Origin: Cladochytrium replicatum | Lineage: Eukaryota > Chytridiomycota > Chytridiomycetes > Cladochytriales > Cladochytriaceae | NCBI GenBank assembly: GCA_025526935.1 | Contig: JAHLKD010000009.1 | Location: 372,001-436,000, forward strand | DNA length: 64,000 nt | Reading direction: 5' to 3' | Shown here: positions 4,067 to 61,003 of the stretch, in pieces | How the letters are laid out: each line of letters starts with the position of its first letter | Numbering within the stretch: the stretch's first letter is position 1 | The notes under the pieces: model-generated | What the model saw: the letters and a program-made list of their open reading frames with translations, nothing else | The model's database searches: none | Told to the model about the DNA's origin: nothing | Made by a program: the position numbers and the translations under genes

Positions 4067-5423
4067 TCAGAAACCAGAGTACTTTGGCAACATCTTCTTG
4101 CTGTTCTCATTGAACGACGGCGCTGGCACGCTCTGGTACTTTGTGTCGGAATGATGTTGCTGTCCAAAGACGTATTCGCACGCACCCACCCCGATGACGA
4201 CCATCAATGCCCACAGCCCGTACACAACCCCCGAGATTTTCCCCAAAGACGAAGCAGAGGAGTCGAAGTACGAAGAGTAGAGCGCAAGACCGATCGGCAC
4301 GACGACGGCGAAACCGAGGAGAAGCGCCGAGCGACCTACCCACCAGTGAATTTTGTCACGAATGGGGATCGCGGAGCGCGCGGGGTCGAAGAGTTTATCG
4401 ATGACGATACCAAGCACGGCTTGTAGCGGTGCAGCGCAGATCAAGAGCATTCCAAGAACCTGCAACGAAACAAAACAATTTGTCAACTCTGATCACATTT
4501 CAAGGTTCCCACACCAGCTTCATACCACATGGGTCCCCTTCAATGGATCCGAGACCGAAAACTGCTCCCCGCCAGAAGATTCAGTGTAGACGTAAATCAA
4601 TCCGAGCGCGATGAACGTGAACAGCACCACGAGGGTGAACAGGATATAGTGGATCCGGAACCACCACACCCCGAGCTTGGGCTTAAAGTATCGGGCCACG
4701 ATCACTGCGGATGGCGCAAATACTCCCCACGCAAGCGCCATCAACCACCCATGTGCAACCAACAGCATCGTGTTTGCACCTCCACCTCCAATATCCGAGT
4801 CCGCAGAAGCTCCCGACGAGCTCAACAGTGTCAACCCACTCAACGCCTGCCGAGCGAACGAGGGGTGCTTTGAGATCGATGAGGAGGGGTTGCTGCTCGT
4901 CGGGCGTTCTGTCGGGTTCATGGCGTAGATGTAGGCTTGTTTTTGGTCGACGCCCTGGAAAGCGAGGGAGGCCGGGAGACCTGAGAGTTGGGCGTAGGTG
5001 CGGTCGAAGGTGGCGACCATTTTCTGCGTGCCGTTGAGGTTCATCACTTTGGTCTGTGCGGATACAATGCTGATGGTTCCTGGCATGTGTCGAGGCAAGG
5101 AGTAGCCAGACACTAAGCGGCGTGATACTGTGACGGTTCCATCATTGTTCGGCCAAGCAATCTGAAATAAAAATTAGAAAATTGGCCGAGCAGAGTTCTC
5201 TATATGAACGCACGACAACGTCCGCCGACGACATGCTCGAGCCTGGCCCGAATGCGACCCAACCGATGTTCGGTGGCGCTGTGTATACGATCCTCACTGC
5301 GGTGGCATTGAGTTGGGTCGCAGTTATGCAAAACTGGTCGTTTGAGCTGGGGACTTGAATGCACGATCGTGCGTAGACTGCAGCCACGAAGAAGTAGAGG
5401 ACCAGCAAGGAGAGGCGGAACAT
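4067..5423 (-). CDS. DOMON domain-cytochrome b561 membrane reductase
   Basis: Three exons on the minus strand (5423-5214, 5161-4526, 4459-4067) give 412 residues. A signal peptide (MFRLSLLVLYFFVAAVYA) is followed by a DOMON/CDH-cytochrome-like domain (about residues 20-190; IGWVAFGPGSSMSSADVVV). The second half is an eukaryotic cytochrome b561 core of about five helices. Histidines suited to haem binding occur in AHGWLMALAW, RIHYILF, KGTHV and DKIHWWVGR. The N-terminal domain should face outside the cell or the vesicle lumen. By family analogy it would move electrons across the membrane to reduce ferric iron or feed extracellular redox enzymes; the partner is inferred, not seen. The C-terminal tail is polar. 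Both introns have canonical GT-AG ends. Confidence 0.88.
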
Positions 5424-6152
5424 CTTTGGAGTTGAATGTGGTAGCTAGCTAGCTTGAGAGCGGATGGCCGAGATGGGTTCCGCCGTCCTAAAGTCGAGTC
5501 GAGGGTCGGGCAGGTCGCAGTTGTCTTATGGGTGGCGGGGACCGGAGACATCGAATTCCCACGGTGGTGTGCAGATTGTCTGTGCGGGTGGAACAGCGCA
5601 CCAACTTAGCAATTGTGTGATCAGTAGTACTTCAAAAGGACAAGAGTAAACTATTACCGTGATGTCACCGATCCAGAAGTTGCGGCTGACAGTGCATGGG
5701 TTTAATGTAGCACAGAGGAGCCTCAAAATAACAAAAAATAATAACAAACCCATTACGGCACGGATGTGTCCGCAGAAGTGCGCAAGACAAGGAGCTTCGT
5801 CTGGATTGCACATATCACCGACGCAGACGTCTGCAGCAGCGGCTGACTTGTCTATGTCTGGGTCAGAGATCAGCATGCTTTCCGGCAATTCGCAAGCACA
5901 ATGTGGCAGTACAGTCTGTTTTCCAGGTCTGGACGGTGCCAATCGCAACAGGGGCCTCGGATGAAAACGCGCACCATGAGTGGTGGGAACAACCCCCAAT
6001 CATGGCAACAAGCTAGGGCCTTCTAAAAAGGGGCAGAAAAAGAGAGCTCAGAAGATCTCTGTGCAGCTGCACAACACGGCTATCGACAAATTTCTCTAAC
6101 CATGTCTTTATGAATGTCCCAAGATTCATGGTGACATACATGAAATTGAGGC
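5424..6152. other. Upstream region of DOMON-b561 gene
   Basis: The minus-strand open frame 5526-5999 has no domain and no splice logic, so I treat it as spurious. The region presumably contains the promoter of the DOMON-b561 gene. Its right edge is the insertion site of the hAT-like element (target duplicate TAGGAGGT at 6153-6160). Confidence 0.4.
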
Positions 6153-6599
6153 TAGGAGGTAAGGTTTGGCAGGTCTGGGTTGGGTCCGGGTTTCAGTGGC
6201 GACCTGCATTAAACCCTTTATTTTGGGTCGTGCTTGTCCAGCAGGCACCCGGCGGGTCACTGACGGGTATGAAGGGAATACCCAGACCCGAAGTGGTTGA
6301 AACCCGTACCCGACCCTGACCAGCCGGGTTTGTTGCTGCTCAGGAGAGGAGTGATTGAACTTGAGTTAGAACACGCTTGATATTTACATGAACTCTTTGT
6401 GTCTGTGTGGACCGTGTGATATTTACAAACACTATCTCAAAGATGAACAAAACTCCACTGAACAATCACAAGTTGATAGGTGGAACAGCCCAAATCAGCT
6501 TCTGTATCTGGTTCGAGAAAGTGTCTGTGGACAAAATCCTATTGCTCGTAGTATTTGTAGAGAGGTTAGCTGCATCTGATAGAGATTACTGAAGTACCG

Positions 6600-6930
6600 T
6601 GCTGCTGCAGGCTAAGCAATGCAAGGGAACTGGTTGGAGAACTGGTTTATTGTACTTTCGGAATTCTACCAATCCCCTTGATAGCCGACGAGATGCTTAT
6701 TGGGCCGCCCGTTGATGTTGGCACTGCAGGTGTATCAGCTTCTGAATGACCAGCCTGTAGTTTCAGAGCAGCAAGCTCTCCCTCCAGGGCAGTCACACGT
6801 GATTTCTATTGTGAAATCTCCTGGGAAGCCGCCTGCTTCTCCCTTTCTATTGCAGCGGTGATCTCCCTGAATCTTGCTAGCTCTTCATGCTCGCCGTGCT
6901 GAATCAATGCACCCGCCCTGCCCAATCCCA
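6600..6930 (-). repeat. Coding-like fragment also present inverted at 47150-47470
   Basis: On the minus strand this translates to a charged, coiled-coil-like stretch (containing GEHEELARFREITAAIERE) with an in-frame stop. The same sequence recurs in the opposite orientation near 47150-47470 with roughly 85-90% visual identity. It is probably a remnant of a second protein of the mobile element rather than a host gene. Confidence 0.5.
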
Positions 6931-7006
6931 GAGATGTTTCAGGTGCAGTCACCGGTTCTGACTTGATTCTCTTTCAGATGATGGTTTGGATTGTTTCAAA
7001 GCTCGT

Positions 7007-7481
7007 GTTAAAAACTAGCATATCAGACTGTTCCCTATATGGGTTATCCTTTGGGTTGTCTTTTTTCTCTTTGGTCTGAGTTTTATTGTCAATCCCTCTT
7101 CGTTCTTATTTATGGACTTGTATTTCATGTATTTATTTCCATGTTTGGCAGGTCCTGTGTGGAGTGATCTTGGCATTTAGTGGGGAATGTGGTGTGGCTT
7201 GGTCCTTTGAGTTGATGTGACCAATGTCTTTGACCACAGGTATGCCCACAGGCACTGTTCACTTGAATATAGGAGTTGATGTGCCCAATGTCTTTGACCA
7301 CAGCATTCCCTGGCTGCCTGACCAGCTTGGGTGTAGTGTACAGCCTGTCTGAGTATTAGGCATATACACACACCTGGGAGAATAGGTACTGGGCCAAGAG
7401 ACAGAACCTGGCGCTGTTGTGCTAGCTACAGTACAGCTAAAAACGCCCTACCGCTGCCAGGAGAGGCCTTTGGTTTTTAAC
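7007..7481 (+). mobile_element. 475-bp MITE-like element, copy 1
   Basis: The ends are perfect inverted repeats, GTTAAAAAC at the left and GTTTTTAAC at the right. Imperfect short direct repeats flank it (AGCTCGT before, AGCTCGC after). The body is non-coding and near-identical in order to copies at 35192-35667 and 46331-46805. It contains an internal near-repeat in which 'gttgatgtgaccaatg'-like sequence occurs twice. It is nested inside the hAT-like element and is therefore younger than that insertion. Confidence 0.75.
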
Positions 7482-29160: not shown

Positions 29161-30534
29161 TCCCTCCATTGCCAAAACGTGCTATGGAGGGATTAGGTAT
29201 AGCGTTTTATTTCAACGCTGGCGTCGTTCTTTGGTTATCGGTTGGACCCCTTTAATAGTGTTATCTTATCCTTTTAGACTCCCGTTTCCCCCGAAAAAGA
29301 AAACTTAAACCCTTTTTGAGCGGTCCTTCTTGTTTCTTGTTCATCCTTATTTGTTTTTGAATTGTGTTTGTGACAGCCACATTTTGGATTGCTGCAAGTC
29401 GTACACTTTTGAGTCATTTTCTTCCCAATGGAGAGCGCTTCCACCTCTCCCAATCTTTTTCTTCGGTGCTCTCGATCGTTATCAGGTTGTTAGTTGTTGG
29501 GATCTGTGCTTCCATCCACCAGAAAAAGTCTAGAGTTCTCTCCTTACTTTACATTTCTCAGTTCGGCTTTTCGGAAGCTGATGGGAGAAGTATTTCATGG
29601 AACGTCCCTTCAACTCAAACCGGGAGCGCGTGCTTTTGACACATGAAAAGGTACGGTTGAGAGTGTTTGAGTTTTGTGCATTGTTTTTGAGTAGCAGAGA
29701 AAGGGACTAACCACTTCTTTCTCTTTTTCATTTAATTTCACACCAATCCACCAAACACCGAAACCGTACCCGATCCCAACTATCACCCCTTTCCGCTTTC
29801 GCATAGACCTCTTTTGTCAAATTTTTTGTTCCAGCATTTCATTTTGGTTAATGTTGGAACCCCTCGAACGATTATTCTTACTCCCTCAAATCCATTTATT
29901 TTAACACAAATATGGGCGGTCTGGTTCTGAGAGAGGCACCCCTGTTCTTTCTCCCCATCAGCGTCTCCTCTCCCCCTGCCCAGAACTTTCATGTGGGAGG
30001 CATTCCTTTCTTGACCAAATCATCATTCTCTTTATTAGTCCGATGATGTTGGTCATATCGGAGTGTGTGTTTATTGGATTCCACTTTCTTATCTCTTCTT
30101 ATAAGCCCGCAATTCCACAAAAAGTCAAATGACACGGGGGTCCTGGCTCTTCTTGTGTGCTCTCTCTGCCTACATACACTCGAAGTTGGTGTTTCTTGAT
30201 ATTTGACGTCCAGCTTTTGCTATTCGTTGGCAAGTGTTGGATATTCCTCCCGTTTGTTTTCTCTACTCTGGCGACCGGAGTTTCTTAACTCCTCATTGTC
30301 TTTAGGTTCAGGGCGAGTTTAAGTGAACTCTTTTTTCTCCGTTCATGTGGTACAAATCATTTGTCATGAATACAAGGATAATAAGGCGCCGACAAATTAA
30401 AATTTGCAAATGTTTCCATAGTTTTCGAAGACTTCGGAAAGGGGAAGCGATTTGGTCAGAGGTGAGAGAAAGGATTAAATATAGCGTCCGTTTCAGTGGG
30501 AAGCCGGAATCCGTCCAACATGGAATGAACCTAT
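29161..30534. other. Long intergenic region, T-rich, no gene
   Basis: About 1.4 kb with T-rich plus-strand composition, short frames only and no domain or intron chain. It separates the 3' ends of casein kinase (plus) and the transporter (minus), so it should hold both 3' UTRs. Confidence 0.4.
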
Positions 30535-32052
30535 CTAAGGTTTCTCCATCTTCCGAGTTTTTGGGTCCAAAAGCTCGAGAACGACTCTGGCCTCTCTCGC
30601 TTTCAGCCATGTGTATGCACACGATCCAAGAAGGATCAGTATGATTCCGACATTTCTTGGAAGAGAGGTGGATTCACCGAGGATTGCAACCGCCAAAACT
30701 GTTTGCAACCTTTCGAAAGAGTCAGTGATGTTCCACAAAGTTCTCATAAAGCAACGTACACTCCTCGAACTGCCGAGCTGATCATGTGGGAGACCGGGGA
30801 GGTTACTTTGATCTGCAAGAATCCCGCGATGTTGATCATAAACCCAACCATTCCCTAAGCTCCAAATTAGAAGACAATCCCCGCAAGTTTCCAGCGACAA
30901 TAACTCACAGTCGCAATGGCTCCCACGATGAAGAACTTGACTGCCCGCAACGCATCGTCTTCCTTCTGCGCGCGAGCAAAGCTCCACAGCGGACTCGAAT
31001 GGCCCGCTTCTCCGGCCTCCTGATCCTCATATGCCTCTCTTCTCGCCTGATCTTCCATCCCGGCGACGGCGAAGATAAACGACGACCAACGAAAGTTCCT
31101 GACCATAGCCGGCCACGCCGTCCGGACCATCGCGAGCAGTTTCCCGACCTCTCCAGTGTAAAACACGACGGGCAGCATCGCGAACGTGGAGAGGACGTTG
31201 TTGTAGTACACGAGCGCGAGCGTACTGCCCCTCACCGCGTCGACTGAGGACTTTATCACGACGGCGTGGAAAGACGTTGTGATCGAGGAGAGGATGCCGA
31301 AGAGGATGCCGAGGTTCTGGCGGTGGGGTTCATAGGGGAGGGAGTTCGGCTCGGGGAGGTCCATTTCGGGGATGTTGGGTGCGGCAAGGTCGCCGGCGAG
31401 AGCGAGGGGATCGGCGTCGTGAATGAGTGCGTCTGTGGTCGTGGTCACGACGATGGATTGGACCACCCTGTGGTCCATCAGGGTGCCGATCAGGAAGCCG
31501 GAGAAGATGATGGAGCAGCAGACGAGGACAGGGATTGACGAGCGTTGGCCGAGGAAGATCCAGTTTTGGAAGAGTGTGAATGGGAGAATCAGGGATCGAG
31601 CGACCTGAAATTTAGATTGTGAGTTCTCGAACTTTGAATACATTCGAAATGCAGAGCTTAACCTGGTAGAAGCTGGCGTCAACGTACTGCAGACACAATG
31701 TATTCAAGCTGAGTCCCAACACGTTTGCGCCAACCATGGGGATCAGACGCCTGCTTATTGAGCGGTCTATCTTGGGACAGTGATATACGCCCAGTTTGTG
31801 GCCAACTCTCATGATAATCACAGCGATCACCATTTGTAGCAATAAGAAGAGTAGTGGAAGATCAACGGTGTTCAACACAGCTTTGTTGACCAGGATCATA
31901 GCTTGGAGGGTAGTTTATAGCTTAATTTGACATTTGTGTAGTGTCTTACCAATCGCTGTTACAATGTAGAAGGAGACTGAGAACACAACAACCCTGTAGG
32001 AGTCTGATCCGCTGGACCCCCCATGTGGTCTGATCCTCCTGTCGGCACCCAT
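30535..32052 (-). CDS. SLC35/TPT-family nucleotide-sugar-type transporter
   Basis: Five exons on the minus strand (32052-31950, 31901-31663, 31604-30909, 30854-30760, 30709-30535) encode 435 residues with canonical introns. About ten hydrophobic helices are seen, starting VVVFSVSFYIVTAIAMILVN and LPLLFLLLQMVIAVIIM. Other family-like stretches are VGANVLGLSLNTLCLQYVDA, SITTSFHAVVIKSSVDAV and TVLAVAILGESTSL. The pattern (NKAVLNTVDLPLLFLLLQM; SFYQVARSLILPFT) fits the triose-phosphate/GDP-fucose-like (SLC35C) branch, so a Golgi location is likely. Loops between helices 5 and 6 and within the third exon are unusually long and acidic (AYEDQEAGEAG). The substrate is inferred only from the broad family. 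Confidence 0.85.
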
Positions 32053-32604
32053 TTCGAACCCTTCCTTGGAATGAGGAGTTCACTGGAAGGACTCAAACAG
32101 AAAGAACGACACGTTGTCACGAGACCACCGGATTGGTCAATGGGGGGACTTCCCGTCTAATGATGCTGGATTGACCTAATGTGTTTGAGTTACGGAGGAT
32201 AACATGAATTTTACAAATGTCAGCCAGAAAACAGCAAGAGTGTCTGTTCAAATAGTCTGGCCATTACAACATCAAAGAATATCATCTCATCAAGAATAGG
32301 TAGGATCTGTTGGATATCGAGGAATAAGGCAGCCTTGGTATTTTGGCTCATGGTTTAACAGGATCAAAGTCTTGTTCGACTTTTCAGCTAGTCTTGTTTG
32401 GCAAGTGACTGATGATGTTGAATCCACCGTTCCGCATTCCCTCAGATTCACGGGCGCCCCACATTACACGAGCTTGCCCCGACGCGGTTGCCATACTCTC
32501 ATTGTACACGGAGGCCCTGGATACTTTCTGGACACCTTTTGAGAAAAGAGAAAATATTAAGCATAAAAGACTAATTGCCTTGGCCCTTGAGCTAACCGGA
32601 CACA
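32053..32604. other. Promoter region between transporter and small genes
   Basis: Overlapping short frames on both strands (32384-32605 minus; 32412-32711 plus) have no clear support. Likely the 5' region of the minus-strand transporter. Confidence 0.3.
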
Positions 32605-46805: not shown

Positions 46806-49800
46806 ACCCCATCCACCACTGGTTATGTCCTTTGCCAACCCGGTCCTGATGAACTGATCAATGTCGTCATTTGACACCATGAAATCCTTGGATACACCTC
46901 AGGGAGCGTTATGGACAACAGATGGTCGATGTATGCCGTCCAGAACCTCAGCCACGCAGAAGGATACGTATCCACTAAAAGTCTGAACATGCGATATATA
47001 GTGGCAGACATACTAAGCGAGTTGTTCTGCCAAATCCAGTTTCCGAGCAAAATGCGCACCCATAGAAGAGTAATGCAGCTCCGAGCACTACTACTTGAAG
47101 CACCCGATTTGCAGCAGAAGTGCGAGAGAAGGCACTCATTGATCAATTAGGCAGGCCGGTGCATTGATTCAGCACGGAGAGCACAAAGAGCAAGCAAGAT
47201 TCAGGGAGGTCACCATTGCAATGGAAATGGAGAAGCAGGCAGTGTCCCAGGAGATTTCACAATAGAAATGACGTATAACTGCCCTGGAGGGAGAGCAAGC
47301 TGCTCTGAAACGACAGGCTGGTCATTCAGACGCAGCTACACGTGCAGCACCAACATCAATGGGCGGCCCAAGAAGCATCTCGTAGGCTATCAAGGCGATT
47401 GGTAGTTCCCAATGCCCAACGAACCAGTTCTCCAACCAGTTCCTTTGCATTGGTTAGCCTCCAGCAGCACCGTCATACAGCTATCGTTTTGGTGAAAATG
47501 GGCATCCAGGGTATCTACTTCCAGATGCATAAGATCAATGAAGTTATCCATGACCTCAAATTGCCGTCTCTACCACCATCAACCAAGTTCGTCAACTGCC
47601 ACTACAAAATCCTCTCCCAAATGAGTTCTTACGGCCCATCTTTGTTGAATCTGACGAATGCTCAAGCTGACCATCAAGTTCTCTCATTCATTGCCGTCTC
47701 TACAACATCCTTTGTCATGTTCAACAGTAGTTCTGACTGTTTGAGGACCCGTTTTGTCCTTTCACGGACCTCATCCGCTTGTTTGATGGTCGCTTGGAAG
47801 TCGTCAACCTGTGCAATGACAGGCATTTAGAGAAGCAGAGGATGGAATTGACTCTCCTTTGAACCGTGTCTCGACTCAACCACTTACTGTCCGGAAACAA
47901 GTGCTTTGAGAGTGGCCAGCTCGCCGAGGGCACTGAGACGACGGCAACAACCACCACCTCCACCGAATGCAACAAGATGGGAGCGTTATCAGCAACAAGG
48001 GATTGTGCTTCCTTTGTCGCAACGATGGGATCCACCCCTGGCGATGTTCGGGAATGGTGGGGCACGTCGTTGGAACTTTTCTTCCACGCCAAAGCAGTGG
48101 AGCATACTGTTCGATTGAACGAATTTCATGGCAGACGGTTGGTCGAGGCAACAGAGTTTATGGTAGCAGCTGCGCTTACGCAATTTGCGTTCTACCATCA
48201 ATCTTTTGATATCCTCAACGACATGACCAAGACCATGCCCTACCCAGCTCCAGTCGATTCACACCTAAAGAAGCGAGTCTCCCAGATCAAAGTGAAGCGG
48301 CACCGCCAGAAGAAAGTGCTGAATCTCTCTCTTCTGAGGGCTCGACCAAGCCGGAGGATAGGGAAGATCGAGTTTCCAAAGGCGAAGCAGAAATAAGTGA
48401 TACTGATTCCCAACTTTTGAGCCCGTTGTGGGGGATTGAGCTTTTCAGCTCCGCCAATGATGGCTACACCTCATTCAACTACCAGGCTTTTTTTGAAAAA
48501 TCACCCATGCTCAATTCAGAACAGCATTCTTGCTATGCAGATAAGCGAGAACATCCCTTGCGTCGATATCTTTCAAGACGGACTTCCTCGCGGAGCACCA
48601 CCTCAAGTAGGGGTACGTTTTTAATTTGTTAGGCGTGTGGTCTCGAAAAGCTCATGCAGATTTCCCGAGGGCAATTTAATCCCCAATGCACCGAGATCAG
48701 TGCTGCAATATTATCTCGAGGATGCAATTTTTTCAATAGATGTATGTTTAAAAGTTAAAAAATCAACGACGATGAAGCAGCCAGCCGTCGTCGTCGCCGT
48801 ACCACGACTTCGACGCTGAGGATGAACACCATCGCATGACTGCGAACGTTCCTGGGCTGAGCGTTGGCATAACAGCTCCACAAGAAGATCGAGGGATCTA
48901 GAAGAGCTTGACCAATTTCAGCGTGCACTTGCGCAAGATCAGGACGATGATACGTGCGGGAGAGTGAGCACAGAAGATGGTTGGGAATAATCCATGATGG
49001 TTGGGAACGCCACCAGACAACGAACGCCGGGCTGAAAGTAGTTAATTCGAGTCGAGAAATTAATTGTTTCTTGTCTGATTGGGACGATTTGACAGTCGAA
49101 GTTGGCAAGCGTTTCATGACCTGACCCGGAATGCCTGACCAATTATACACATCTTTTAAAGCTTTGAGAAGCTGGAGTTCAAAGGAATCAACAGCATACC
49201 ATAAATGTCTTGATCCGGCCAAAAAAAGATGCCGACTAGAAATGACCTCCAAACTACATTGGGCAGTCCTGTTGCTCCAGTTGTCTCTTCTTTTTTATCA
49301 TCATTATTACCACGCTGTGTGAATCCGAACACTGAGTCACCCAAAACCCCAAAATCAGCCGGATGATGTCAGCCATTTCCAATAATTTGAATTAATCGAA
49401 ACATTGAGACGTCCGGCTCACTCTCCTCCGTAAAAAACCGAGCAACCTGCGACAGCTCCCCAAAGCAACTGCAGAACTTCTCTCTCTTCAGCAAGGAATT
49501 CTTTCACACTTCATTCAGATCCTCGCACAGACTATCCATCAGTCAAGCGGAGAATCAACTCACAGTATAGCGATTTCCCCACTATTCAATGTCTACTGTT
49601 GTGCTAAGAGATACTGCTGCCGTCGATATTCCCGCCTTAACTCCGTAGCCGTTCACCTCCATCAGTATTATCGTAATATTTTTGGTGCCATTGTCATTAT
49701 CGACCTATTAGCAAGGTGAGGTGCTCTTACTACTTTTTGATCAAATCGACTTGTTAACTCTGTCGCTCCTTCATTTTCAGCATTCGTAATATCACCTCAA

Positions 49801-49833: not shown

Positions 49834-52095
49834 ATGCAGCTCGATACGATCATTCCTCAGCAACTTTCGCTGCCTGCCTCTCTTCAGCAAATGCAGGAAC
49901 TGTCAGCATCACCTCCTCGAGCACCATCTCCAACTGCGCTGGTTACAACGTCCTTGCTTTCGTGGATCACCTCTTCCGCGAATACAGCTCACATCTTGCA
50001 CGCAAACAACATAAGCCGCATTCCAATCGATCGCATGAGTGAGGAGGCAGAGATTTCTGCTAAAACACTTGTTGCCACTGCCGGTATTGCAATGGCGGCA
50101 GCGTCAATCTCTAAAAAGGACAATGTACTCTCCTCCTACGGCCCCTACATCGTCACGGCCGCTGCATGTGCTGTGGGCTTTTTTTCGATAGCATCTACTG
50201 TCGCGCATGTAGCTGCTCTCGCTGCGTCCGGCGAGAATCAGAAACCACTTTCACACATTCCGAAGCGGCGGAAACGGCGGCAAGCAAAACCAGGCGTTGC
50301 TCACCTTACTGATTCGCCAGCATCCTCCATCAACGATTTGCTATCTCCCTCTCTTTCAGCCATCGTCTCAGATTCAATACACTCCTCGACTGCCTCGTTT
50401 TTCCACTCTGAGCTGACCATCCATTCACCCCTACCGCGATACTTTCGCTCTAATATCGCAGATTCACCGGAAGACAGCGCCTTCCACCTTCCCGAACCTG
50501 TCCCAATTGCATACGGCTTTGTGTCAGTGCACGATGCCGAAGCACTCACCGCCCACCGGGCTGACTCCTCACCCGAACCCACATCCCCACTCGACTCAAC
50601 AAATTCGTCAGAGACACAGCGAGCCCTCCTTGCCCACTACAAATCCAAGTCCCATCGCCTCTCGAAGCACCTCCGCATATTGCAGCGCCACTCAACAGCA
50701 CAGTCGGCTATGATCGCCTCCCTGCACCACGAGATACAGGCGGAGCGGGAGGCTCGCTCTATTGTAGAGAAGGCTTGCAAAGACCGAGTAAAAAACGTAG
50801 AGGTCTTTCTTCAGCTTCGTGAGGATGAATGGGCGGAAGAGCGGTCACGACTGCTTGAGAACGAAATGCGGTATTTTGGGATGGCGACACCGGTACAATC
50901 AGAGTCAGTTCGCTCAGCCAGTTATGCCGAGGTGAAGAACGGCGGGGAAGTTGAGAAGGAGGAAGAAGAAGAAGAAGACGATATTGTCATCTTCAAAGAG
51001 GATTCTCCCGACCAGGCCGCGCCAAATGCATCTCAGACAGCACGACAATATCTTGAACGGTGGTGTGTTGGAACACTTAGTCAGCTGGAGGAGGATTTGG
51101 AGGAGCGATCGGCCTGGCAAGATTACATCACGATCGCGCACCACATGCGAGAAGCTATCATTTCGAATGCGCAACCGGAGACATTGATGCTGACGCTCAA
51201 GGATCTGGGTGGAGAGGTCGCAGCCGACGAAGGGCTAATGCTTGGGATCGTGCTCTTGTGTGTGTTAAGAGTTGTGCAGGATCGTAGCCAGCTCAGCCGC
51301 GATGACCTTCGAAAGGTGAGTTTATGCTTACCTACCAATGCATAGTTACTGAAGTATGCACACTTTTTGCAGACAATGCGAAGGTATCGCATGGTTATAT
51401 GGGGATACATGAAGAATGAGGGCGACCAAGAGCGTCTCATTGAGCTCGTGGAGCGTACTGTGGCTGCGGAAACAAACTGTGTGAATGAGAGCCCACCAAA
51501 CGACACTGACCGAGTTAGCCTCAAAGACGCTTTCCTTGAGATTGTCATGGCCCTCTACGACTCCGATCTTGTGGACACCGGCGCCGTCCTCAAGTGGTAC
51601 CGTGCAAAACTCAAGCAAGATGGACCAGACGAGCTGACCGCAAAGGTATGTACAATTGCTTTGTGCTCAAAGCCATCGAAAATTGATTATGACTTTCAGA
51701 CCAAAACATTTGTTGATTGGCTCGAGAAGCAGGACGACGAAGATTCGGATTCAGAGGGCGATTGTGGTTCTGAGGTTGCAGATGATGATGACGACGACTC
51801 TTCTGAGGATGAAGATACGCTTCACGACCATCCTGTCACCGTTTCTGAAGCATCGTGCGACACCCCACTGGCACTTCCAAAGTCACATGCCGTCGATGCA
51901 GCATTGCTGGAGGGAAGCCATTTTGCAGCTGCGAAGCCAAAGCTTGTGGACGAATCGGGGGAGAAGGATGGGTCGGTCGACGGGACCCCACCGGGGGACA
52001 AGAAGCGGGTTTGGTTTAGCGAGGAGAAGCAGGAGTGGGGTGGCGGTGAGGAAGACGACGATGAGGAAGAAGAGGACGAGGATGGAGAAGAATGA
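49834..52095 (+). CDS. Membrane/coiled-coil protein with C-terminal W2 domain
   Basis: Three exons (49834-51315, 51373-51645, 51700-52095) encode 716 residues. In order: Ser/Pro-rich N-terminus; one or two hydrophobic segments (about residues 78-90 and 103-130, SSYGPYIVTAAACAVGFFS); basic patch PKRRKRRQAK; disordered Ser/Pro region; coiled coil (about 259-350); acidic patch EEEEEEDD; then a helical domain at about 400-600 resembling the W2/MIF4G-C-like domain of eIF2B-epsilon and eIF5. Key W2-like pieces are LKDAFLEIVMALYDSDLVDT, GAVLKWYRAK and TFVDWLEKQDDEDSDSEGD, the usual W2 ending of aromatic-Trp then acidic residues. A further acidic tail ends the protein. No nucleotidyltransferase-like or eIF5 N-terminal domain is present. 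A second possible start is Met68 (MSEEAEISAKTL). The membrane part could place the W2 domain on ER or mitochondria; that is inference. Confidence 0.75.
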
Positions 52096-58447: not shown

Positions 58448-59530
58448 GAAGTCGAAAAGTCGGAGGGAAAGGGTTGTAATATATCGCCCATATGTTGACG
58501 TTGAAGCCCGTGCTGTGGTCGGGAGTGCGGGCTCTCAGTATATTCTTATGGAGTTATCGGGAAAGGATGCTCTCAATCCCGATTTGTACATTCTCTTACA
58601 TCTTTTTTATCCCTCCATTCTGTTGCATCTCCCCCAGCACTTTGTTTACATGACAAAACATTTTTCCTTTTTGTACTCTTTCTTTTTGTGGCTCTCTCAC
58701 CAAGCATTTGTATAACTCCCTCACCCCATTTTCATATAGACTGTCTTTATTTCGATTGGACAATCCTATTCTTTTTATTATACTTTCGGAACAGCTCGTT
58801 TTCGAACAAATAACGTTGCCCCCTAACCCCGTTTTATGTTTCCATGTACAGACATATCTTCCCACCAAGGAACGTTTGTTTTTATGTCAAATTGCATTGC
58901 CAGAAGGAGTTTGGGTTTTGCCAAACTTTAGTGTGCGTTCATTGTTTGTGTAGGTGGCATCACCATCTACTTCCAACCGCACTGTCGTTGTTTTGCAGTG
59001 CAGGAGTTTGATGTTTGTTCTTTTCAACCATGTTATAGACTTGTATCTGGCGCTTTCGCACTTTTTGGAACATTGAAACATTGTTTTTTTCTTTTGTTTC
59101 AGCAGGCAAGCATGTGGGTGGTGAAAAGTGTTTTGTAAATATCGTTAATACGGTTGATGTGCTTCAAGCTGCTTCAGATGTGATGATTGTTGACACTTTC
59201 TTGGTCGAACCTGCGGTGTCATGTGACTCAACTTCATTGCGCCGCTTGCGCTCACCAAAGATTGCGATATCAACAAACCAAACGACGGAAATAAACCCTC
59301 GCACGGTGGGCTGTCAAAGGACTGTCGTTCGGAACGCCTGCCCTCACATCCACAGTTGCTCATCTTGCTTTTGATCCCCGATCGGAAAAAGGAACAGTGC
59401 TCTACAACCGGTGTTATCGCACTCCCTCCAATTTTGGTGTTCGTACGTGCAGAAAACAGTCTTCATAAGATTGCTCGGTTCGGCTCAGCTCGGAAGTCAC
59501 ATCCCCAGCACATCCCATCGACTACACTCA
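58448..59530. other. Intergenic, T-rich; no gene
   Basis: The 3' region of the preceding gene and the promoter of the BTB gene. A plus-strand frame 59081-59374 has no features. The BTB open frame extends upstream to 59411 but that part looks non-coding. Confidence 0.4.
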
Positions 59531-61003
59531 ATGGACCCAAATTCGTCACTTGGCACCCCTTGGGGTAGAACACCACCGCCCTCTGAGATTTCTAACCCGA
59601 AAAGGGTTGTCATAAATGTGGGTGGACAGCGCACATTCGAGACGTATGAGGAGACTCTTCTTTCAAAACCAGACACACTTCTTGCTGACCTAATGAACGG
59701 TTTCGCCACCACGAACGATGGCAAAGTTGCCCCGTGGATTCAAGTTTCTACAGCTGGAGGTGGGGGAGGTGGTGGTAAGGCTCCACCGAGCCCGCTTGGT
59801 GGTCCTTCACTTACTCCACCTGGGAAGCACGCTGGAGCTACAGTCGCGGAGCCGGAGGAAATGCAATTGCCGGCCACACCGGATCCCCATCAGGTTCTAC
59901 AAAAGCGACTGGGAGGGCAGCACACCCTTGTCAAGCGAAACTCGACTGCATCGATCACCCGCCAAGTTGGGGCACCCAATGAGATATTTATCGACACTTC
60001 GCCAGATCTGTTCGCACCAATTCTAGACTACTACAGGACTGGAGTACTTGTTGCACCTGTTGGAATTTCTAGGATGCGTTTCCGACAGGAGCTGGAACGA
60101 TTTGGCCTTCAGTCTATCCCGCTTGCTGATCCGCCGGACACTCGATGGGTCAACGAGACATCGGGAGGCAGTCAGGGAATGGGTGTTCATGGAGCAGTAT
60201 CTCAGCCAACGACCGGATTACGGCCAGAAAACGACCTTGCGTTTAGAATGGTTCCGCTGCTTGTTCGTGCACTCAAGGCTGGAATAGCTGAAATCTCTTT
60301 CACGGTGGCACTTCCTAACCATAGCCCTGGCCCCACACATGGAGCCGATAATCTTCTCCGAGCTTCTTCGCCCTCTCCACCTCTTGCCACTGCTTCTATC
60401 CAGTCCGCATCTTCCTCAGCCGCGTCCCTTTCAGCTACAACCGCCGCCTCGAGTACTGCAACACCATCTTTGGCGATGCAGAGCACCTGGGGCCACATGA
60501 ACGACCTTGCCACGATCCCACAATATGCTCTCAGAACGGTCAACGGCACCTACGAGGACCGTGCCCTCTTCCACGACCTAGCTTCGGCGTTCTCGCGCGA
60601 ACTGAGAGTCACGCTTGAGCCCGCCGAGTTCCTCAAGCGACTCGAGACAGCTGTTGCGAAGGCATGGGTGTCGATGGTGCTCTACGACTCTGAAGTCACC
60701 GGAATCGCCGCACATCCCACTGTTGGAGGCGGGTCCGCTGCGTCAGCTCACCCTGCTGCGTTGCTGACACCCGCGCCGCAGAACCAAGGGTTCTTTGCGC
60801 CCCCACCACCGCAAAAGAGTATGGTGAAGGTGCTGAAGACGATGGTGACGAAGGTGCCGAGCTCTGAGAGCGTGACGACCGCGACGGCGGCGATGGAGGG
60901 GTTGAATTTGAAGAATGTGAAGCCGCAGGATAAGATTGGGCAGCCGCATGTGGTGCAGGGTTGGAAGATCCATTTGTTGCTCAAGAGGGAGTGGAAGGAC
61001 TGA
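59531..61003 (+). CDS. BTB/T1 (KCTD-like) domain protein
   Basis: A single exon of 490 residues starting MDPNSSLGTPWGRTPPPSEI. The T1-type BTB domain is split. The first half at about residues 25-58 reads KRVVINVGGQRTFETYEETL and KPDTLLADLMNG. The second half at about residues 149-195 reads NEIFIDTSPDLFAPILDYYR and MRFRQELERFGLQS. Between them lie about 90 Gly/Pro-rich residues (AGGGGGGGKAPPSPL). A long Ser/Ala/Thr region (about 260-320) separates it from a C-terminal domain (about residues 285-490) with ALRTVNGTYEDRALFHDLAS and EFLKRLETAVAKAWVSMVLY and a final WKIHLLLKREWKD. T1 domains oligomerise; KCTD proteins often act as cullin-3 adaptors. No transmembrane channel follows. The start at 59531 is preferred over 59411 because the upstream part lacks coding character. 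Confidence 0.8.
   Translation: MDPNSSLGTPWGRTPPPSEISNPKRVVINVGGQRTFETYEETLLSKPDTLLADLMNGFATTNDGKVAPWIQVSTAGGGGGGGKAPPSPLGGPSLTPPGKHAGATVAEPEEMQLPATPDPHQVLQKRLGGQHTLVKRNSTASITRQVGAPNEIFIDTSPDLFAPILDYYRTGVLVAPVGISRMRFRQELERFGLQSIPLADPPDTRWVNETSGGSQGMGVHGAVSQPTTGLRPENDLAFRMVPLLVRALKAGIAEISFTVALPNHSPGPTHGADNLLRASSPSPPLATASIQSASSSAASLSATTAASSTATPSLAMQSTWGHMNDLATIPQYALRTVNGTYEDRALFHDLASAFSRELRVTLEPAEFLKRLETAVAKAWVSMVLYDSEVTGIAAHPTVGGGSAASAHPAALLTPAPQNQGFFAPPPPQKSMVKVLKTMVTKVPSSESVTTATAAMEGLNLKNVKPQDKIGQPHVVQGWKIHLLLKREWKD

Follow-up and report, generated by a model that had tools for sequence, protein, structure and literature searches.

The gene at positions 49834-52095 (+) of the window, the 64,000-nucleotide stretch of DNA analysed here, encodes a protein in which a predicted helical hairpin (residues 66-131) is followed by a basic cluster, a disordered linker, a long helix (residues 258-347), a W2 domain (residues 397-604, approximately) and an acidic tail. 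W2 proteins are mainly known as soluble translation factors, and the order hairpin-coil-W2 is an architecture of a known domain that is not described in the literature surveyed. We think that there is about an even chance that the protein is a membrane-held adaptor for eIF2. Among the top-ranked literature results, judged by the openings of their abstracts, no W2 protein with a membrane anchor of its own was found, the nearest being the mammalian W2 protein BZW2, reported at ER-mitochondria contacts (PMC10835002, in part); W2 proteins near membranes are thus not without precedent.

The gene, which sits on contig C9 of an assembly of 50.5 Mb in 198 contigs, reads from the sequence as one gene of three exons, with the ATG at 49834, a TGA stop at 52093-52095 and 716 amino acids once the introns are spliced out. 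Exon 1 (49834-51315, +; residues 1-494) holds the hairpin, the linker, the coil and the modelled first half of the W2 domain; exon 2 (51373-51645, +; residues 495-585) holds most of the Pfam W2 match and the first of two conserved motifs, LYDSDLVDTGAVLKW; exon 3 (51700-52095, +; residues 586-716) holds the second motif, FVDWLEKQDDEDSDSE, the acidic tail and the stop. Intron 1 (51316-51372, +; 57 nt) carries an in-frame TAG, and intron 2 (51646-51699, +; 54 nt) is open in frame. Both look real, because in a second copy of the gene, at C24:181122-183388 (-), they have diverged and differ in length (60 and 62 nt, the latter not a multiple of three) while the splice sites are kept; reading intron 2 as coding was ruled out on the same grounds. 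The N- and C-terminal parts are unlikely to be two genes, since exon 1 encodes not only the hairpin and the coil but also the helices that the models assign to the N-terminal half of the W2 fold, in agreement with the single gene of the earlier note. Further upstream, the sequence holds a candidate upstream ORF (49589-49648, +; 20 codons including the stop), the AUG of which has U at -3, and a predicted 5'-UTR intron (49716-49780, +) whose GT and AG lie at the same places in C24. In the pair alignment, the C24 copy also has an AUG with U at -3 at the place of the 49589 AUG, from which the frame continues differently, and the main AUG, flanked by C at -3 and at +4, coincides in position between the two copies. 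The upstream and the main AUG are both in poor context.

Identity to the C24 copy is 85% for residues 1-495, 88% for residues 494-587 and 78% for residues 574-714 (85.3% for 712 aligned codons). This copy lies in a mostly collinear stretch of 12 aligned blocks within window positions 20072-63521 (66-85% nucleotide identity), two of the blocks being inverted, and across the alignment of the two genes the exons and splice sites are kept and the introns diverged. A dN/dS of 0.114, at a dS of 0.70 (Nei-Gojobori, 712 codons), shows strong purifying selection on the pair. By part, dN/dS is 0.133 for residues 68-135, 0.041 for the coil (residues 256-355, 95% identical), 0.305 for the acidic linker (356-395), 0.062 for the W2 domain (396-605) and 0.091 for the tail (606-716). 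Other diverged duplicates occur in the genome, namely those of eIF5 (C1/C58; dS 0.79 over 158 codons), eIF2-gamma (C18/C39; dS 0.49 over 200 codons that were chosen as identical peptide) and eIF2-beta (C4/C1), and probing the genome with 5MP and with the CCCH-W2 protein (see below) revealed no second copy of either; the duplicates perhaps go back to a large ancient duplication, to a hybrid origin or to strongly diverged haplotypes. Two stretches of the window match other contigs at identities well beyond those seen with C24 and are perhaps recent dispersed repeats, 31536-32080 (99% identity to C49:84402-84946) and 29571-29757 (92% identity to C90:119579-119766). The window also encodes a BTB_2 protein (PF02214, 52.9 bits; 59375-61003, +), which lies within a block that shares 85% identity with C24.

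The W2 domain proposed in the earlier note was recovered by Pfam (PF02020; 46.8 bits against a cut-off of 30, E 3e-12, residues 535-602, profile positions 18-78 of 79; 43.8 bits from the unspliced DNA of the gene) and is the only Pfam family above cut-off, a zf-C2H2_jaz match of 14 bits falling below its own. When the whole protein was compared with the PDB (phmmer, E up to 1), five of six sequences found were eIF2B-epsilon or eIF5 (best E 0.0033; best match 1paq, eIF2B-epsilon) and the sixth was an unrelated bacterial protein matched elsewhere in the query; a profile of the domain from the two copies (E up to 10) found eIF5 or eIF2B-epsilon in 15 of 15 cases (best E 0.0083). Against the W2 set of the same genome, made up of the domains of eIF5 (two), 5MP, eIF2B-epsilon and the CCCH-W2 protein, hhalign gave a probability of 97.3% (E 2.6e-11, domain columns 104-206). 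It is chiefly the second half of the domain that sequence comparison covers. In the structure alignment, eIF5, CCCH-W2 and 5MP are represented by their second halves, the first 5MP piece being left out, and eIF2B-epsilon is represented by one exon throughout; a first version, in which the N-terminal halves of eIF5 and others fell on intron columns, was replaced by trimmed rows. The paired motifs of W2 domains are named acidic-aromatic boxes (AA-boxes). Those of the window protein, LYDSDLVDTGAVLKW and FVDWLEKQDDEDSDSE (the latter at residues 589-604), align with the boxes of eIF5 and others, the first being less acidic and devoid of the acids seen in eIF5 (LVEEEV to LVDTGA); both boxes and the acidic run are retained, and Ser-Asp/Glu runs come after the second. 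Upstream of the second box are FLEIVMALYDSD (residues 548-559) and LKWYRAK (residues 567-573), which marked the C-terminal helical region of the earlier note and is indeed helical in the model.

An AlphaFold model of the domain, for which both introns were left in and translated, consists entirely of helices (mean pLDDT 53.3, pTM 0.56). A Foldseek search with it gave 227 matches in the PDB under an E limit of 10, none of which reached 0.001. The top five (6o81_A, 6o85_B, 3jui, 7f66_J and 9hve_I; E 3.4e-3 to 4.5e-2, probability 1.00, 218-240 gapped columns, query-length TM 0.37-0.44) come without exception from structures of eIF2B or eIF2-eIF2B; epsilon is named for 3jui, in the title as the C-terminal domain, and for 6o81_A, and the other three chains are not named among the matches of the domain profile. 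Below them rank designed helical proteins and chains of the cap-binding complex, with eIF4GI at rank 49 (E 3.0) among the best 50 of the 227. The first half of the domain (51022-51315, +; residues 397-494) is beyond the reach of sequence searches, and its membership of the same W2 fold rests on the models. A W2/HEAT fold for residues 397-604, approximately, is thus supported, but not proved, and would be held in common with the W2 domain of eIF2B-epsilon (PDB 3jui, 1paq). Unlike eIF2B-epsilon, which is encoded by a separate gene on C104, the window protein has neither a nucleotidyltransferase nor a beta-helix domain (Pfam, E up to 1). Nor does it have the N-terminal domain of eIF5 (PF01873; Pfam), for which six matches are listed in the genome, on C1, C4 and C58 and none on C9.

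Eight W2 matches were found in the genome. The six above cut-off, judged by their surroundings, are eIF5 (C1 and C58), 5MP (C81), eIF2B-epsilon (C104), a CCCH-associated domain (C65:268748) and the window gene; the C24 copy and a degraded relative on C65 (see below) account for the two that fall short of it. At the CCCH-associated locus (piece L025 of C65), two CCCH zinc fingers are on an open frame at 6080-7150 (-), about 700 bases upstream of the W2 frame (63.4 bits; 4748-5359, -) on the same strand, and the two frames possibly form one CCCH-W2 protein. The contact with eIF2 or eIF2B suggested by the earlier note is plausible, and the usual W2 partner is at hand, as the genome encodes two copies of eIF2-beta that keep three lysine boxes: in each, two long runs of lysine were found by a pattern search and one more, KKKKSKKPK, by eye. 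The lysine boxes of eIF2-beta are bound by the W2 domains of eIF5, eIF2B-epsilon and 5MP (PMC12224906, in part).

With the gene structure, the W2 domain, the long helix, the constraint and the lysine boxes of eIF2-beta computed, a membrane-held eIF2 adaptor may be pictured as follows. The hydrophobic hairpin would fix the protein to an internal membrane and, if the segment is a hairpin, both ends would be in the cytosol, where eIF2 is. The 90-residue coil would serve for dimerisation and as a spacer. With its two AA-boxes and the acidic run, the W2 domain would bind the lysine boxes in the eIF2-beta tail, competing for them with eIF5, eIF2B-epsilon and 5MP. The adaptor would in this way concentrate or hold eIF2 at the membrane, and could thereby affect translation.

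The protein could instead be a membrane-bound mimic of 5MP/BZW, likewise a non-catalytic W2 protein, that only sequesters eIF2 and tunes start-codon choice, its own mRNA perhaps being self-regulated; we regard this as possible, but unlikely. When the four W2 proteins of the genome were compared one by one by local hhalign, 5MP came first (94.1%; eIF5 88.3, CCCH-W2 87.5 and eIF2B-epsilon 84.4). BLASTP, however, places CCCH-W2 first (35.0 bits), followed by 5MP (33.1), eIF2B-epsilon (32.3) and eIF5 (23.5), so that kinship with 5MP is not clear. The poor AUG contexts of both gene copies recall the poor start contexts reported for BZW and the poor-context uORFs reported for eIF5 (PMC5823381, in part). 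Yet 5MP has an N-terminal MA3 HEAT domain (PMC12224906, in part), in place of which the window protein has a hydrophobic hairpin and a coil, in addition to its tail of 112 residues; no MA3 domain was detected by Pfam, and a true 5MP is encoded on C81.

The predicted hairpin, a putative membrane anchor (50029-50226, +; residues 66-131), comes from a low-confidence AlphaFold model of exon 1 (two input sequences; mean pLDDT 47.3, pTM 0.23), which consists of helices at residues 66-92 and 103-131, extended disorder, a single helix at 258-347 and helices at 397-493. Nearly all of the first two helices has a pLDDT below 50. The hydrophobic segment that the earlier note placed near residues 103-130 coincides with the second of them: the top 19-residue Kyte-Doolittle mean, 1.95, is at residues 106-124, a modest value for an Ala/Ser-rich stretch, and a second window (residues 74-92) reaches 1.51. 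The best window of the C24 copy scores 1.75, and that of the C65 relative 2.47. On a Wimley-White octanol scale, none of the five best C9 windows is in the hairpin (the top one is at residues 36-54), as against two of five for C24. The basic cluster KRRKRRQAK (50263-50289, +; residues 144-152) is identical in C24, and KRRKRR, following the hydrophobic segment, could act as a positive-inside signal or as a nuclear one. The coil at about residues 259-350 of the earlier note corresponds to the predicted 90-residue helix (50605-50874, +), which is likely to form a coiled coil; pLDDT is 63-78 per ten-residue block across residues 261-350.

A nuclear or cytosolic coiled-coil protein, the W2 domain of which would bind some other basic tail, is an unlikely reading, even if the hydrophobicity is modest and PKRRKRRQAK resembles a nuclear signal. 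What argues against it is the C65 relative, in which a more strongly hydrophobic segment and then a basic run lie upstream of the coil, on the same strand. In this relative, C65:164265-164507 matches the coil at 28%, and C65:164727-164915 has a Pfam W2 match of 25.5 bits, below cut-off. Compared with shuffled sequences, the similarity to C9 has a z of 4.2 for the hydrophobic segment (5 of 1000 shuffles as good), 13.7 for the coil and 12.1 for the W2 end (none of 1000 in either case). The relative looks degraded, having lost the greater part of the HEAT region as well as the tail, and its frame is shifted and contains stops; the order of the parts is nonetheless retained, and C9, C24 and the C65 relative all have a hydrophobic segment with a basic run after it. 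An N-terminal membrane anchor in this W2 protein is plausible.

The tail is identical at 88 of 111 residues between C9 and C24, falling to 46% over residues 703-716. It contains a block, KKRVWFSEEKQEWGGGEE (52000-52053, +; residues 686-703), that is identical at 18 of 18 residues in spite of five synonymous changes and includes KRVWF; V689 and F691, the V and F of an RVxF-like motif, are borne by KKRVWFSEEKQEW. KRVWF fits only the loose RVxF pattern, and the W at the x position is unusual. The loose pattern occurs in 56% of shuffled whole proteins and in 6% of shuffled tails (5000 shuffles each), and permutation of the tail lends no significance to the identical run of 18 (p 0.24), which ruled out its conservation as proof of PP1 docking. 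No SILK motif was found in the protein, and the KRVWF-bearing tail is absent from the end of the C65 relative. Since the motif is common by chance, we consider it improbable that the protein is a membrane-held eIF2-alpha-phosphatase scaffold, similar but unrelated to CReP/GADD34, in which the W2 domain holds eIF2 and KRVWF docks PP1.

In favour of such a scaffold, the conserved block has basic residues before and acidic residues after the motif, as is typical of RVxF (PMC8262944, in part). Both eIF2-gamma copies, moreover, appear to lack the extended N-terminus with which the yeast and Neurospora proteins recruit PP1: their apparent starts, MADVDISALHPLSPEVISKQATINIG (C18) and MANFNISTLHPLSPEVISKQATINIG (C39), are just ahead of the G domain, with a stop 17 codons ahead of the start Met on C39; on C18 the frame is open further up to another Met, through a stretch that has no RVxF and is not kept on C39. 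In Neurospora, however, the eIF2-gamma N-terminus recruits PP1 without an RVxF (PMC8262944, in part), so that a missing motif is not a missing function. S. pombe and Aspergillus have neither GADD34/CReP nor an RVxF in eIF2-gamma, and additional proteins or mechanisms have been suggested (PMC10743859, in part); phosphorylated eIF2 is acted on by PPP1R15 proteins while bound to eIF2B (PMC7618491, in part). The likeness to PPP1R15 (GADD34/CReP) is hypothetical and would lie in N-terminal membrane association, eIF2 binding and a C-terminal RVxF-like motif, putative in the window protein, in which no PPP1R15-type domain or C-terminal core was detected (Pfam, E up to 1) and in which the eIF2 contact would instead go through W2. 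A literature search combining RVxF, PP1 and the W2 domain found nothing. That flagellated fungi use the protein as a targeting subunit for the eIF2-alpha phosphatase, and so have a third route for reversing eIF2 phosphorylation, next to the PPP1R15 of animals and the extended eIF2-gamma of yeast and Neurospora, is just as doubtful.

The orthologue search envisaged in the earlier note assumed an Agaricomycete, a setting that the genome does not support: an IFT57 gene (five neighbouring pieces on C97), a radial-spoke gene (Radial_spoke; five pieces on C49) and 31 Zn2Cys6 (Zn_clus) matches together point to a flagellated, zoosporic fungus. The same genome has the 5MP/BZW gene on C81, whereas a 2014 paper reported 5MP/BZW, among fungi, for Basidiomycota only (PMC4176352, in part). 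Pattern searches for relatives matched 120 stretches in IMG/VR viral contigs and 81 in GTDB genomes, none of which was confirmed by tblastn.

For fungi with neither PPP1R15 nor the eIF2-gamma motif of yeast, the protein is a candidate recruiter of PP1 to eIF2. If it is membrane-anchored, as a membrane-held eIF2 adaptor would be, a dedicated protein would localise eIF2 control to a defined organelle, and some fungi may hold part of their protein-synthesis control machinery on a membrane.
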